From an uncultured Gammaproteobacteria bacterium (GTDB taxonomy: Bacteria; Pseudomonadota; Gammaproteobacteria; Pseudomonadales; Pseudohongiellaceae), in assembly GCA_913031035.1 (NCBI GenBank), contig CAJWGN010000010.1:1-45584 (forward strand): 45,584 nt of DNA, given 5' to 3'. A program made the position numbers and the translations under genes. Of the stretch, positions 3,581 through 6,500 are shown one piece after another; position 1 is the first letter of the stretch, and every line of letters starts with the position of its first letter. Under the pieces are notes generated by a model. The model did no database searches and was not told the DNA's origin. It saw nothing but the letters and a program-made list of their open reading frames with translations.

Positions 3581-4063
3581 ATGAAAAAAAAAATAGCTGT
3601 TATGTCAACAATTGCGATTCTAGCCTCCGGTTTCTTTTCGGCAGTATCTGCACAGGACCCTCCTACCCCAGAGCAACAGGCTGAAGCGGCGGTAGACACG
3701 AGAAAGTCTGTATTTAAGCTTCTACGATTTAATCTAATTCCGTTGGTCGGCATGGCGCAAGGTGCACCTTTTGATGCCGCACTAGCAGAGCGTAACGGTC
3801 GCCGAATTGCCGCACTAGCACCAATGATCCCCGATGTTATGGCACATAACACGCGTGGATTTGATGTTGAGACAACAGCGCTGGACAAAATTTGGGACAA
3901 CCAATCAGATTTCGCTTCTAAGGCACAGGCTCTAGTAGATAACGCCACAGCGTTCGCTGATGCTGCCGCTACCGGCGATCGCGGAGCGACACTAGGTACA
4001 TTTCGTGCATTAGGCGGCTCGTGTGGTAATTGCCATGACGACTACCGTGTAGATGACGACTAG
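3581..4063 (+). CDS. Cytochrome c' (class II cytochrome c)
   Basis: 160-residue periplasmic haem protein. ATG 3581 begins a clean signal peptide (MKKKIAVMSTIAILASGFFSAVSA, then QDPPTPEQQ); a GGAG lies somewhat far upstream. The body is the all-alpha four-helix-bundle pattern of cytochromes c', and the single haem motif CGNCHDDYR lies at the very C-terminus, which defines class II. Family members bind NO/CO and help against nitrosative stress; some donate electrons. The start codon is followed by a run of ten A (3584-3593), a site where slippage or sequencing error could occur. The gene is monocistronic and ends in a strong terminator. Confidence 0.9.
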   Translation: MKKKIAVMSTIAILASGFFSAVSAQDPPTPEQQAEAAVDTRKSVFKLLRFNLIPLVGMAQGAPFDAALAERNGRRIAALAPMIPDVMAHNTRGFDVETTALDKIWDNQSDFASKAQALVDNATAFADAAATGDRGATLGTFRALGGSCGNCHDDYRVDDD

Positions 4064-4091
4064 CTCCACTATTTCCTTTACTACGATCAAG

Positions 4092-4126
4092 AAAAGGCAG
4101 CCATAGGCTGCCTTTTCCGTTTTTTA
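4092..4126 (+). terminator. Rho-independent terminator of the cytochrome c' gene
   Basis: AAAAGGCAGCC (4092-4102), 3-base loop, GGCTGCCTTTT (4106-4116), then CCGTTTTTT. Perfect 11-bp stem with a T tract. Confidence 0.9.
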
Positions 4127-4593
4127 TTTGAAATATTTACCGCTCATCTACACTTTTTTTCATATCAAGTTTGTTTGAGAATCATTTTCTATGTGAGAAA
4201 GGCAAACAGAAACACCAAGCCGTTGGCCATTACCATTCAAGTAGCTGTTTTATAAAAGACCAATGCTCAATAGAAAGCTCGCTAAGTGTCGCATGAAGCT
4301 CAAAAAATACTAGAGCGACGATGACGAATATAAAGTCTATATTCCAAAACTCTTTAACGCGTCACGCTCTCTGATTTACAATAGCACTTGGGAAAACCAA
4401 GTCGAAAAAGAAGCAGCGTGATGGCGCTTGAACTGGTTATTATCAGTTGGAATTTCTATGCTTCGACTTGCCAGTCTTCATCACTGCATTAAACTGCCGC
4501 AGTTCTATTACATTAAAGCTAATGAAAATATCCTCTCAGAAATGACGATCAAGGCCCATCATGGCTCCTTAATAAAACACTAGAAAATATATT
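4127..4593. other. Intergenic region, possibly a gene remnant
   Basis: No intact gene. From about 4263 on the plus strand, an ATG-led frame (MLNRKLAKCRMKLKKY) meets a stop after 16 codons and then stays open to about 4420. This might be debris of a gene but resembles nothing I recognise. Confidence 0.3.
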
Positions 4594-4902
4594 TCAGTCA
4601 TTTTTTCGCTTTCGACTGAATTCAACTCCAAAGCGTTCCTTGTGTGAGTACTTTACAAACACAAATGCGACAATAAAAGGCATTGACGAGACTCCAATTA
4701 TTCGTCCTGCAGTTTTTAGGGAGATTCCAAAGTCTGATACAAAAAAATAAGTCTCTACAGCTAACACCCCAGCAAGGTATAGAGCGATTTTAAAATTTAC
4801 GAACCCAAGATAAGCACCGGTATTTTTATCTCTTATAGCATCAGAAATAAACACCATGGCCAATAGAGGCAGAATGGTTGCATTAAGATAAATGTAATTC
4901 AT
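4594..4902 (-). CDS. Small membrane protein, candidate bacteriocin immunity protein
   Basis: 102 residues with about three hydrophobic segments (YLNATILPLLAMVFI; FKIALYLAGVLAVETYFFV; IIGVSSMPFIVAFVFV) and a strongly basic tail (KYSHKERFGVEFSRKRKND), so an inner-membrane protein with a cytoplasmic C-terminus is likely. The start has a good AAGGAGA ribosome site nine bases upstream. It lies 61 bases downstream of a double-glycine-leader peptide gene, in the same direction. That is the usual place for the immunity protein of a class II microcin/bacteriocin, since such proteins are small and membrane-bound. The role is inferred from position and shape only; I recognise no family. Confidence 0.55.
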   Translation of the reverse strand: MNYIYLNATILPLLAMVFISDAIRDKNTGAYLGFVNFKIALYLAGVLAVETYFFVSDFGISLKTAGRIIGVSSMPFIVAFVFVKYSHKERFGVEFSRKRKND

Positions 4903-4963
4903 TTTTTATGTTCTCCTTACCATTTGGTATATATCGGCAGCTATAAAAAGTTACTGTTGACTC

Positions 4964-5236
4964 TTAAGAACTATTACCAACATGATTTCCCATAATTCCA
5001 ACTTCTGCTGACGAGGCGCCAAAAAATACGCGAGCGAACGTGGGAACATATGAACTGGTAGCAATGCCACCAAAAAACCCGGCAACACCACCCAGAATTC
5101 CGGCACCAAGAACCTGACCGACATTTCCTCCGCCAAAATAAGTAGAACCTACGCCTGTCACAATTCCTAGTCCGACGCCTAACAGCCCAAATCCACCGCT
5201 CACCTGTTCAATTTCATCACAAGTTAATTCTCTCAT
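4964..5236 (-). CDS. Double-glycine-leader peptide, class II microcin/bacteriocin-like precursor
   Basis: 90 residues. ATG 5236 is chosen because AAGGAG lies 7 bases upstream; a TTG two codons earlier is less likely. The first 15 residues, MRELTCDEIEQVSGG, are a textbook double-glycine leader, close in pattern to the colicin V leader MRTLTLNELDSVSGG. Cleavage after GG by a peptidase-containing ABC transporter would release about 75 residues rich in Gly, Ala and Val with GxxxG-type repeats (GLLGVGLGIVTGVGS; GAGILGGVAGFFGG), as in membrane-active microcins. The mature part has no Cys; the leader has one. No transporter (PCAT or HlyD-like) gene is in this window, so export would rely on genes elsewhere. 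Antibacterial function is inference. Confidence 0.75.
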   Translation of the reverse strand: MRELTCDEIEQVSGGFGLLGVGLGIVTGVGSTYFGGGNVGQVLGAGILGGVAGFFGGIATSSYVPTFARVFFGASSAEVGIMGNHVGNSS

Positions 5237-5453
5237 CCTCAATCTCCTTTTGATTTCGGTTTAATTTATCCTTAGTATCGACTAGCCTTTTCAGCGTAGG
5301 CGTAGCTGTTAAAAAGTCGTAGTTTTTCGAGAAATTAAATTAGGAAACAGAGTATTTTTGAAAAAAAGTCTACGAAAAGGGTAAGCCGGCGCATAGTGAT
5401 TTCTGGCTCTAGCGTCGAGTAGTGAAACTCATTTGTGGTTTTTGAGCATGGTT

Positions 5454-5528
5454 TTAGATGAAGACTAATGATATTTCAGCGATGCCTTCACTTACTTTTT
5501 CGATCTCATGCTTGGATAGTTCTCTCAT
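5454..5528 (-). CDS. Leader-only mini-ORF related to the adjacent microcin leader
   Basis: A 24-codon ORF beginning MRELSKHEIEKVSEG, matching the leader of the gene 220 bases downstream at ten of fifteen positions, including MREL, EIE and VS. The second-last leader Gly is Glu (EG instead of GG), and the ORF ends nine residues later. It therefore has a leader but almost no cargo. The upstream ribosome site is weak (AAAAGAA). It is most simply the remnant of a duplicated precursor gene; a very short expressed peptide is possible. Confidence 0.5.
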   Translation of the reverse strand: MRELSKHEIEKVSEGIAEISLVFI

Positions 5529-5618
5529 TTCGATATTCTTTTGAAATAAACAGTCAATAAACAGATTCATAGTTTAGTGGTCTACCTATTAAAGGCCAAG
5601 AAAAAGGGAAATTAAAGC

Positions 5619-6500
5619 TTAGATCACAGCCACATTGTGCCTGGTGAAATATGCGGCCAGCGCTGCACGATCTGCATCGGTGAGTTTGCTAGTATTGTGC
5701 TCAATAACATCATTCATATCACCGCCAACAAACTCCCCATTGGGCTTTAAACCTAACAGTAAGAAAAGATCAAAGTTATCCAGAGTCCAGTCGGACATTG
5801 CCTCGCCGTCAATAGGCTCGATTACTTCCTCGCCTAGCTCAGCGCCTGCGTATTCATTAGAATAATCAGGAATACCCAAACTGTTACGCGGAGTATGGCA
5901 TTCGCCACAGTGGCCTAAATTCCTAGCCAAATAGGCACCTCTCGCCACTGCGGCTTCTTCAAATGCTTGGGCTTGGGGTTCAGCAATTTCAGCCATGATG
6001 TTCCAACCGGCCACCGCCCAGCGGCTTAGCCAAAAAGGTGTTTCTGGATCGCCAACGTAATTATTAATTGGGGCTAACGACATGAGGTAAGAACCAATAT
6101 CTAAGGCCTCTTGATCGGTTAGCCCCCCATAGGCACGATAAGGAAAAGCCGGGAAATAGAAACTTCCAGAGGGTGTACGGCCATGCTTTAAGGCAGCTAT
6201 AAAATCCCTTGCCTGCCAGTCACCAATACCCGTTTCTCGGTCTGGTGTGATGTTTGGCGCATAGAAAGTACCAAAATCGGTAGCTAAGCCATGGCCTCCA
6301 GAGAGCGTTTGTGAATCTTCATCTCCCTTATGGCAGCTAACACAGCCTCCTGCTGTGACCAGATATTCGCCTCTAGAGATTCCCTCGGGGGAGGTGCTAA
6401 GTGAAAGGTCTGCGGAAATAGTGGGCGGATAAAAAATCAAAAAAAGCACAAGCAAACCAACGGCTAGGATACTGACGGGCAAAAGGATTTTTAAACGCAT
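5619..6500 (-). CDS. Membrane-anchored diheme cytochrome c
   Basis: 293 residues. An N-terminal hydrophobic anchor (LLPVSILAVGLLVLFLIFY) is followed by two cytochrome c domains with haem motifs CVSCH (53-57) and CGECH (198-202). This is the layout of cytochrome subunits that take electrons from periplasmic alcohol/aldehyde or PQQ-type dehydrogenases. NITPDRETGIGDW and FPAFPYRAYGGLTDQEA are typical of these diheme subunits and contain likely distal Met/His regions. It acts at the periplasmic face of the inner membrane. It lies near a PQQ dehydrogenase but is transcribed in the opposite direction, so partnership is only suggested. No strong ribosome site is visible. Confidence 0.85.
   Translation of the reverse strand: MRLKILLPVSILAVGLLVLFLIFYPPTISADLSLSTSPEGISRGEYLVTAGGCVSCHKGDEDSQTLSGGHGLATDFGTFYAPNITPDRETGIGDWQARDFIAALKHGRTPSGSFYFPAFPYRAYGGLTDQEALDIGSYLMSLAPINNYVGDPETPFWLSRWAVAGWNIMAEIAEPQAQAFEEAAVARGAYLARNLGHCGECHTPRNSLGIPDYSNEYAGAELGEEVIEPIDGEAMSDWTLDNFDLFLLLGLKPNGEFVGGDMNDVIEHNTSKLTDADRAALAAYFTRHNVAVI

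Follow-up and report, generated by a model that had tools for sequence, protein, structure and literature searches.

What does the small gene pair at positions 4594-5236 of contig CAJWGN010000010.1 make, and how would its product leave the cell? The window, by which we mean the whole analysed stretch of 45,584 nucleotides from an uncultured gammaproteobacterium of the family Pseudohongiellaceae, carries on its minus strand a precursor peptide gene (4964..5236, 90 aa) that an earlier note, made from the sequence alone, had read as encoding a class II microcin-like precursor. The start codon (ATG, 5236) lies 7 nt behind an AGGAG ribosome-binding site (5244..5248, minus strand), and AAAAGGAGATTGA is present upstream of precursor homologues at three other loci as well (L130, L111, L175). 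The product begins with MRELTCDEIEQVSGG and divides into a 15-aa double-glycine leader (5236-5192) and a 75-aa mature part (5191-4967) that is 28% glycine and ends in NSS, with the C-terminal Ser codon at 4967-4969 and the stop at 4964-4966. The leader ends in GG or GA, as class II microcins require. Across the 3.96-Mb genome, a degenerate codon pattern for the first nine leader residues occurs exactly twice, at two places in the window 292 bases apart, and the reversed control has no match, so the leader is not a product of chance, and the earlier reading of the 90-residue product is confirmed on this point. The precursor has relatives in the genus that are 35-62% identical to it; those with E above 1e-4 are unsure.

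Searches of the precursor and of the 102-residue protein behind it against Pfam and NCBIfam, as the earlier note had proposed, were run and returned sub-threshold matches only. For the precursor, these were to Pfam MccV (residues 1-51, 15.4 bits where the curated cut-off is 27), to the NCBIfam lactobin A/cerein 7B family (residues 3-36, 18.9 bits where it is 21.5) and to NCBIfam VP1 (E 2.5 only). The Gly-rich mature region described earlier stands, and the emphasis on its GxxxG repetition does not: the mature part holds 8 GxxxG pairs against a shuffle mean of 5.4 (p 0.11), a spacing not clearly above that expected from glycine content alone, and we rejected it as a special feature. A 24-aa ORF on the same strand (5454..5528) has a second, degenerate leader (MRELSKHEIEKVSEG...), with no mature part and no good ribosome site. 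Since in one related genome (G011) the peptide gene is immediately preceded by another leader ORF, of 64 aa, this short ORF may be the remnant of a second precursor.

The gene behind the precursor (4594..4902, minus strand) proved to be as first described, a co-directional membrane protein gene 61 nt downstream, with its ATG at 4902 and an AGGAG ribosome-binding site (4913..4917) 10 nt before it. Its 102-aa product has three helices as predicted by AlphaFold2 (mean pLDDT 83) and the motif AIRDxxTGxYLGF; the best match of the model in a PDB fold search had an E-value of 1.2. The gene is conserved beside the peptide gene. With E-values up to 0.01, peptide matches were found in 14 of 58 genomes (the weakest of them are unsure) and partner matches in 6, own genome included in both counts, and all seven partner matches adjoin a peptide gene, so that relatives of the two are neighbours in other species too. 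A partner lies within about 1.1 kb downstream of 36 of the 43 distinct complete precursors in the genus, counted with a profile built from 12 of these same partners; 24 belong to the family of the window's partner and 12 to a second family, leaving seven precursors with neither. By sequence comparison, the pairing of peptide and partner is thus well supported, and the partner is likely an immunity protein.

In three other genomes (G024, G011, G013), the pair has the same flanks as in the window, a cytochrome c' gene on one side and a cytochrome c gene on the other, which suggests an old, chromosomal locus. A promoter scan found 4 sites against 3.4 in shuffles, and the one terminator-like site is on the opposite strand, behind the cytochrome c' gene. 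We also observed that the leader peptides in this gap (4063-5619 in the window; also sites in L024, L025, L027, L032) differ between species and that the gap in G021 holds two leader peptides of other types; the gap is possibly an exchange site for bacteriocins.

As the earlier note had it, no export gene lies near the pair, and the peptidase-containing ABC transporter with an HlyD partner that it had proposed to look for is present elsewhere in the genome. The sole Peptidase_C39 match found in the genome (about 92.5% complete) sits on another contig, C1, in a run of five genes encoding an acyltransferase (AcylT, 327 aa), an ACP (87 aa), an HlyD protein (423 aa), the C39 ABC transporter (697 aa) and a RayT-like protein (229 aa). 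The ACP and HlyD genes overlap by 4 nt, as do the HlyD and C39 genes, and the catalytic Cys, His and Asp of the transporter are present when read by eye. Two 452-aa frames resemble the TolC family (E 5e-62 and 3e-61; 210 and 208 bits, under the curated cut-off of 225). Among the ORFs around the exporter, neither inspection by eye nor Pfam found siderophore-attachment genes of the MceC/MceD/MceIJ type. With the leader, the conserved membrane partner and a single C39/HlyD exporter all in place, we consider the microcin-like reading of the precursor supported. The earlier note had also held that homologues in genomes lacking a C39 transporter would speak against that reading, and this objection applies in part: some assemblies, G013 (96% complete) among them, have both peptide and partner and no C39 match that we could find.

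The exporter run recurs in other genomes. We inspected 21 neighbourhoods among the 37 genomes of the genus with an AcylT match. All five genes occur together in 14 loci (own included; one has HlyD in two pieces) and in four of seven further loci; in the remaining three, C39 is not seen (G089) or the acyltransferase is only partial (G022, G002). In the genera g23 and g340, the order ACP, AcylT, HlyD, C39 was found in 5/5 loci of one set and 13/15 of another, the remaining two being L286 and, at a contig end, L289, both without an ACP match; the exporter locus of G842 (genus g339) is interrupted by a contig end. The DSL attachment motif of the ACP is invariant in 14/14. The last gene of the run (L002:11783-12472 on contig C1), called RayT-like after the REP-associated tyrosine transposases, has 13 relatives, and the matches among these 14 proteins are weak, three to REP_Tyr_transpos (best E 0.005) and one to Y1_Tnp (E 0.03). 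RayT-type enzymes carry a His-x-His motif, which is absent from all 14; the protein looks like a domesticated, inactive transposase. Because it has no match in the loci examined in the other genera (g23, g340), we give it no role in acylation.

Does the window's pair belong with this remote exporter? In one genome of genus g23 (G847, locus L289), AcylT, HlyD, C39, peptide and partner are contiguous. The 86-aa precursor there begins about 100 bases after C39 and is 38% identical to the window's, and the partner follows about 56 bases after the precursor, at 30% identity. This contiguity indicates that the window's pair belongs with the same exporter type, although it lies on another contig, an assignment that the sequence comparison supports well. 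None of the peptide genes found in the genus lies inside the exporter run. In a tree of 37 chosen C39 proteins, the 26 AcylT-linked ones group together, apart from the other 11 (support 97/99); an earlier tree, lacking 7 of 35 C39 proteins, set 21 AcylT-linked proteins against 7 others. The tree was rooted at its midpoint, so a single origin is compatible with it rather than proven by it. Across 84 genomes of the genus, as tallied by hand from the genus searches, AcylT and a leader peptide were both found in 26, AcylT only in 11, a peptide only in 8 and neither in 39 (p 8e-7), an association to which the relatedness of the species and the incompleteness of many assemblies may contribute.

The profile of the acyltransferase (ACYLTRANSFERASE) matched 37 of the 84 genomes of the genus and C39 matched 38, with both in 34; AcylT was found without C39 in G002, G022 and G089, and C39 without AcylT in G008, G068, G072 and G086. 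The AcylT family occurs in 59/137 genomes of the bacterial family (4/8 genera). With five first-look candidates scored per genome, it was found in 9/390 genomes of an order sample, all within this bacterial family, and in 2/398 genomes phylum-wide, namely our own and one partial match at 6e-13; a plasmid search gave no match. A search of genome contigs with the single peptide found one relative, in Solimicrobium silvestre, where the peptide gene lies between HlyD and C39 and its product ends in Arg, and the 20 kb examined there hold no AcylT match. Common descent of the AcylT-ACP-exporter run and its restriction to this bacterial family are supported, as far as sequence comparison goes.

The window species' own AcylT scores 21.4 bits against PF03279, below the curated cut-off of 22.3, and 14 of 16 AcylT relatives match that family (E up to 0.001, best 1.9e-12). 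In the PDB, the 14 best matches of its structural model (pLDDT 77) belong without exception to PatA or LpxM, with E-values of 1e-9 to 1e-8 and a TM-score by query of 0.50-0.54. The catalytic pair of LpxL/LpxM is HX4(D/E). All 16 proteins have the presumed catalytic His, and position H+5 is acidic in none of them (hydrophobic in 14, Thr in 2), with D or E found instead at H+3 in 15/16 and Asn there in the window's own species. Since the acid of HX4(D/E) is absent though the His is invariant, acyl transfer by this exporter-linked enzyme is plausible, not proven.

What would the enzyme acylate? The leader peptides suggest an answer, since 48 of 54 precursors in AcylT lineages end in Ser. In the main set, 44 of 49 different complete precursors do so (43 from the genus and 6 from g23), a count that leaves out the 24-aa ORF and a G031 peptide cut by a contig end. 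Among five further precursors behind or near the C39 gene of AcylT operons, two out of two from a first set in g23 end in Ser, as do those of L289 and L275, and that of L281 ends in Arg. No residue occurs in more than 16 of the 49 at any of the seven positions before the last, and the tails vary among relatives of the window's peptide, whose last 11 residues (GIMGNHVGNSS) include 3 Gly and 2 Ser. By similarity (E 0.001, single linkage), the mature parts make up seven groups, the largest with 34 members; Ser-ending members occur in six of these, three of which are Ser only. Leader and final Ser are the two features common to otherwise dissimilar cargo. The background rate is 63 of 980 long ORFs (6.4%), these being mechanical ORFs on both strands. 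Near AcylT-less C39 genes, none of six leader peptides ends in Ser; that scan searched 18 loci with a residue pattern, unlike the codon pattern that yielded the genus peptides, and of its seven leader-like ORFs one (Ala-ending, inside a larger ORF) was left out. Because LpxL-type enzymes use acyl-ACP and pass acyl groups to hydroxyls, the final Ser is best explained as the site used by the AcylT.

The Ser rule has exceptions. By genome, Ser-ending precursors make up 42/46 where an AcylT was found and 6/8 where none was (genus only), which argues against a strict dependence of the final Ser on AcylT within the genus, unless the operon disappeared from these genomes in recent time or lies in a part that was not assembled. 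The six assemblies with Ser peptides and no AcylT found are 68-96% complete (G013 96%, G092 94%, G068 93%, G101 87%, G097 85%, G070 68%). The six non-Ser peptides comprise two in G072, one ending NSSP in G020, two of MRELSEKEM type (G021, G020) and one in G864 (AACR). For G072, no AcylT and only a C39 fragment were found; the other four (two in G020, one each in G021 and G864) are in AcylT-bearing genomes.

Taking this together, we lean towards the following reading of the locus: a class II microcin-like bacteriocin with a probable immunity partner, served by a remote exporter run that probably acylates the peptide's C-terminal Ser before export. The precursor would be made in the cytoplasm with its 15-aa double-glycine leader. 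A dedicated LpxL/PatA-type AcylT would take an acyl group from the dedicated ACP and place it on the hydroxyl of the C-terminal Ser, after which the C39 domain of the ABC transporter, the domain that recognises such leaders, would cut off the leader and the peptide would exit through ABC-HlyD-TolC. The Gly-rich, hydrophobic and then lipid-tailed peptide would act on the envelope of competing bacteria, its presumptive target, and kill them, and the three-helix membrane partner would protect the producer. Against acylation stand the 6/54 non-Ser peptides, the six assemblies with Ser peptides and no AcylT found, the altered catalytic motif, the 11 genomes with AcylT and no leader match and the location of the genus peptide genes outside the exporter run. 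More tentatively, and at a level of belief that stops somewhat short of even, we propose that these peptides are lipo-microcins, an additional maturation type within class II, in which a dedicated ACP and an LpxL/PatA-type enzyme esterify the C-terminal Ser side chain with a fatty acid before export. A single acylating exporter would then handle many dissimilar bacteriocins with nothing in common but leader and final Ser.

The alternative that survives best, though we consider it rather unlikely, is an ordinary, unmodified class IIa-like microcin with its immunity protein, where the AcylT and ACP serve another purpose and the peptide needs its Ser to be exported, to be stable or to insert into a membrane. 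Class II microcins in general have such a leader, size, Gly content, partner and C39/HlyD exporter; the altered AcylT motif, the peptides that do not end in Ser and the 6/8 Ser where no AcylT was found in the genus also speak for this reading. Two observations weigh against it: the contrast between 48/54 Ser in AcylT lineages and 0/6 near AcylT-less C39 genes, and the persistence of ACP and AcylT beside HlyD-C39 in three genera.

One such other purpose would be remodelling of a lipid of the producer's own envelope (lipid A or phospholipid) as a general self-protection, with the peptide again unmodified. The nearest folds, those of LpxM (a lipid A acyltransferase) and PatA (a mannoside acyltransferase), point this way, as do the weak PF03279 match and the use of acyl-ACP by LpxL-type enzymes. 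We nevertheless regard it as improbable: 36/43 genus peptides already have a small downstream partner of one of two families, and the C-terminal Ser would be left unexplained.

A contact-dependent glycine-zipper system like Cdz of Caulobacter, in which aggregates of the peptide on the surface of the producer kill on contact and any acylation would serve as their anchor, would account for the similar size, the Gly-rich hydrophobic core, the small membrane immunity protein and type I secretion. The CdzC/CdzD/CdzI system (CdzC 86 aa, CdzD 84 aa) has, in the sections available of the paper describing it, small Gly-rich exported proteins, a membrane immunity protein and type I secretion, and it differs from our locus in being a two-protein, contact-dependent system with no obvious modification enzymes in the cluster (PMC5380434). 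Cdz needs two peptides, whereas here there is one intact peptide and a 24-aa ORF, and GxxxG is not clearly above composition; such a system seems to us a distinctly poor fit. Least probable is a signalling peptide with the partner as its membrane receptor or processing factor. Double-glycine leaders are used by pheromones too, though the VP1 match has an E-value of only 2.5. Against this reading, the mature parts are highly variable, copies occur in tandem and the partner family differs with the type of peptide, as is the pattern in toxin-immunity pairs.

If the peptide is acylated at its final Ser, how does the system compare with known ones? Its logic would be closest to that of the class IIb siderophore microcins (MccE492, MccH47, MccM), with differences in enzyme fold, donor system and mature sequences. 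The parts of the literature available to us describe modification of their C-terminal Ser by MceI/MceJ or MchD/MchC, with the HlyC-like MceI/MchD taking part (PMC10233263, PMC7680869, PMC3281104). The likeness would extend to the double-glycine leader, export by C39 ABC and HlyD-type proteins, an acyltransferase-family protein in C-terminal Ser modification and an immunity protein. Here, however, the AcylT has an LpxL/PatA rather than an HlyC-like fold and comes with its own ACP, the mature sequences do not as a rule have the Ser/Gly-rich tail of about 10 residues, ending in Ser, that marks class IIb, the exporter is far from the peptide gene, and attachment, if real, is more likely to the Ser hydroxyl than to the carboxylate. 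In a microcin cluster reported from Serratia marcescens, with SM027, SM017 and SM051, putative class II microcins adjoin genes with a potential role in modification. These encode, among others, proteins with an adenylation domain or of the AMP-binding kind, MchC and a toxin-activating lysine-acyltransferase; the acyltransferase is named as of the lysine-acyltransferase type, and the sections available mention no LpxL-type enzyme or ACP (PMC13101503).

Other systems resemble single parts of the locus. Microcin V and lactobin A/cerein 7B are alike in leader and Gly-rich mature part, with matches below the curated cut-offs. To our knowledge, the MccV system has no acyltransferase or ACP. In Moraxella catarrhalis, McbABCI encodes an HlyD-type protein, an ABC transporter, a double-glycine peptide and an immunity protein in the same gene order as L289, judging by the available portion of the paper, and a text search of it did not find 'acyl' (PMC2761928). 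Selidamides are ribosomal peptides that likewise bear a fatty acyl group, attached, according to the available excerpts, by GNAT enzymes to Lys or (hydroxy)ornithine side chains and not by an LpxL-type enzyme (PMC9505594).

Lipid tails are common in non-ribosomal antibiotics and rarely reported in ribosomal peptides; a review, available in part, calls lipidation in RiPPs very rare. In the titles, abstract openings and passages of open-licence papers covered by our searches on ACPs, acylation or lipidation in microcin, C39/HlyD and RiPP systems, no such system is described, and as far as this literature goes the acyl branch is undescribed, with leader, size and export all microcin-like of class II. 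If the proposal is true, class II microcins gain another uptake or anchoring device besides siderophores, the enzyme pair has a directly testable substrate rule (leader plus final Ser), and genomes can be searched for the combination of an ACP/LpxL-type exporter operon and cargo with a final Ser, as a signature.

Three further observations concern exporters and cargo of other kinds. Another exporter type in the genus (L093, L094, L098, L099, L100, L230, L231) has two adjacent C39-related ABC genes, encoding proteins of 707-808 and 968-981 aa, and no acyltransferase match; no cargo peptide was found for it. The MRELSEKEM peptides (L032:7427-7618, L115, L131) have dissimilar mature parts, two of the three lack a C-terminal Ser, and their genomes have several C39 matches; they are perhaps cargo of another exporter. 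Finally, at two loci (L221:4539-4872 and L222:4650-4983) the C39 gene is followed directly by a tandem pair of precursors, about 50 and 55 aa long and both ending in Ser, which possibly constitute a two-peptide bacteriocin.
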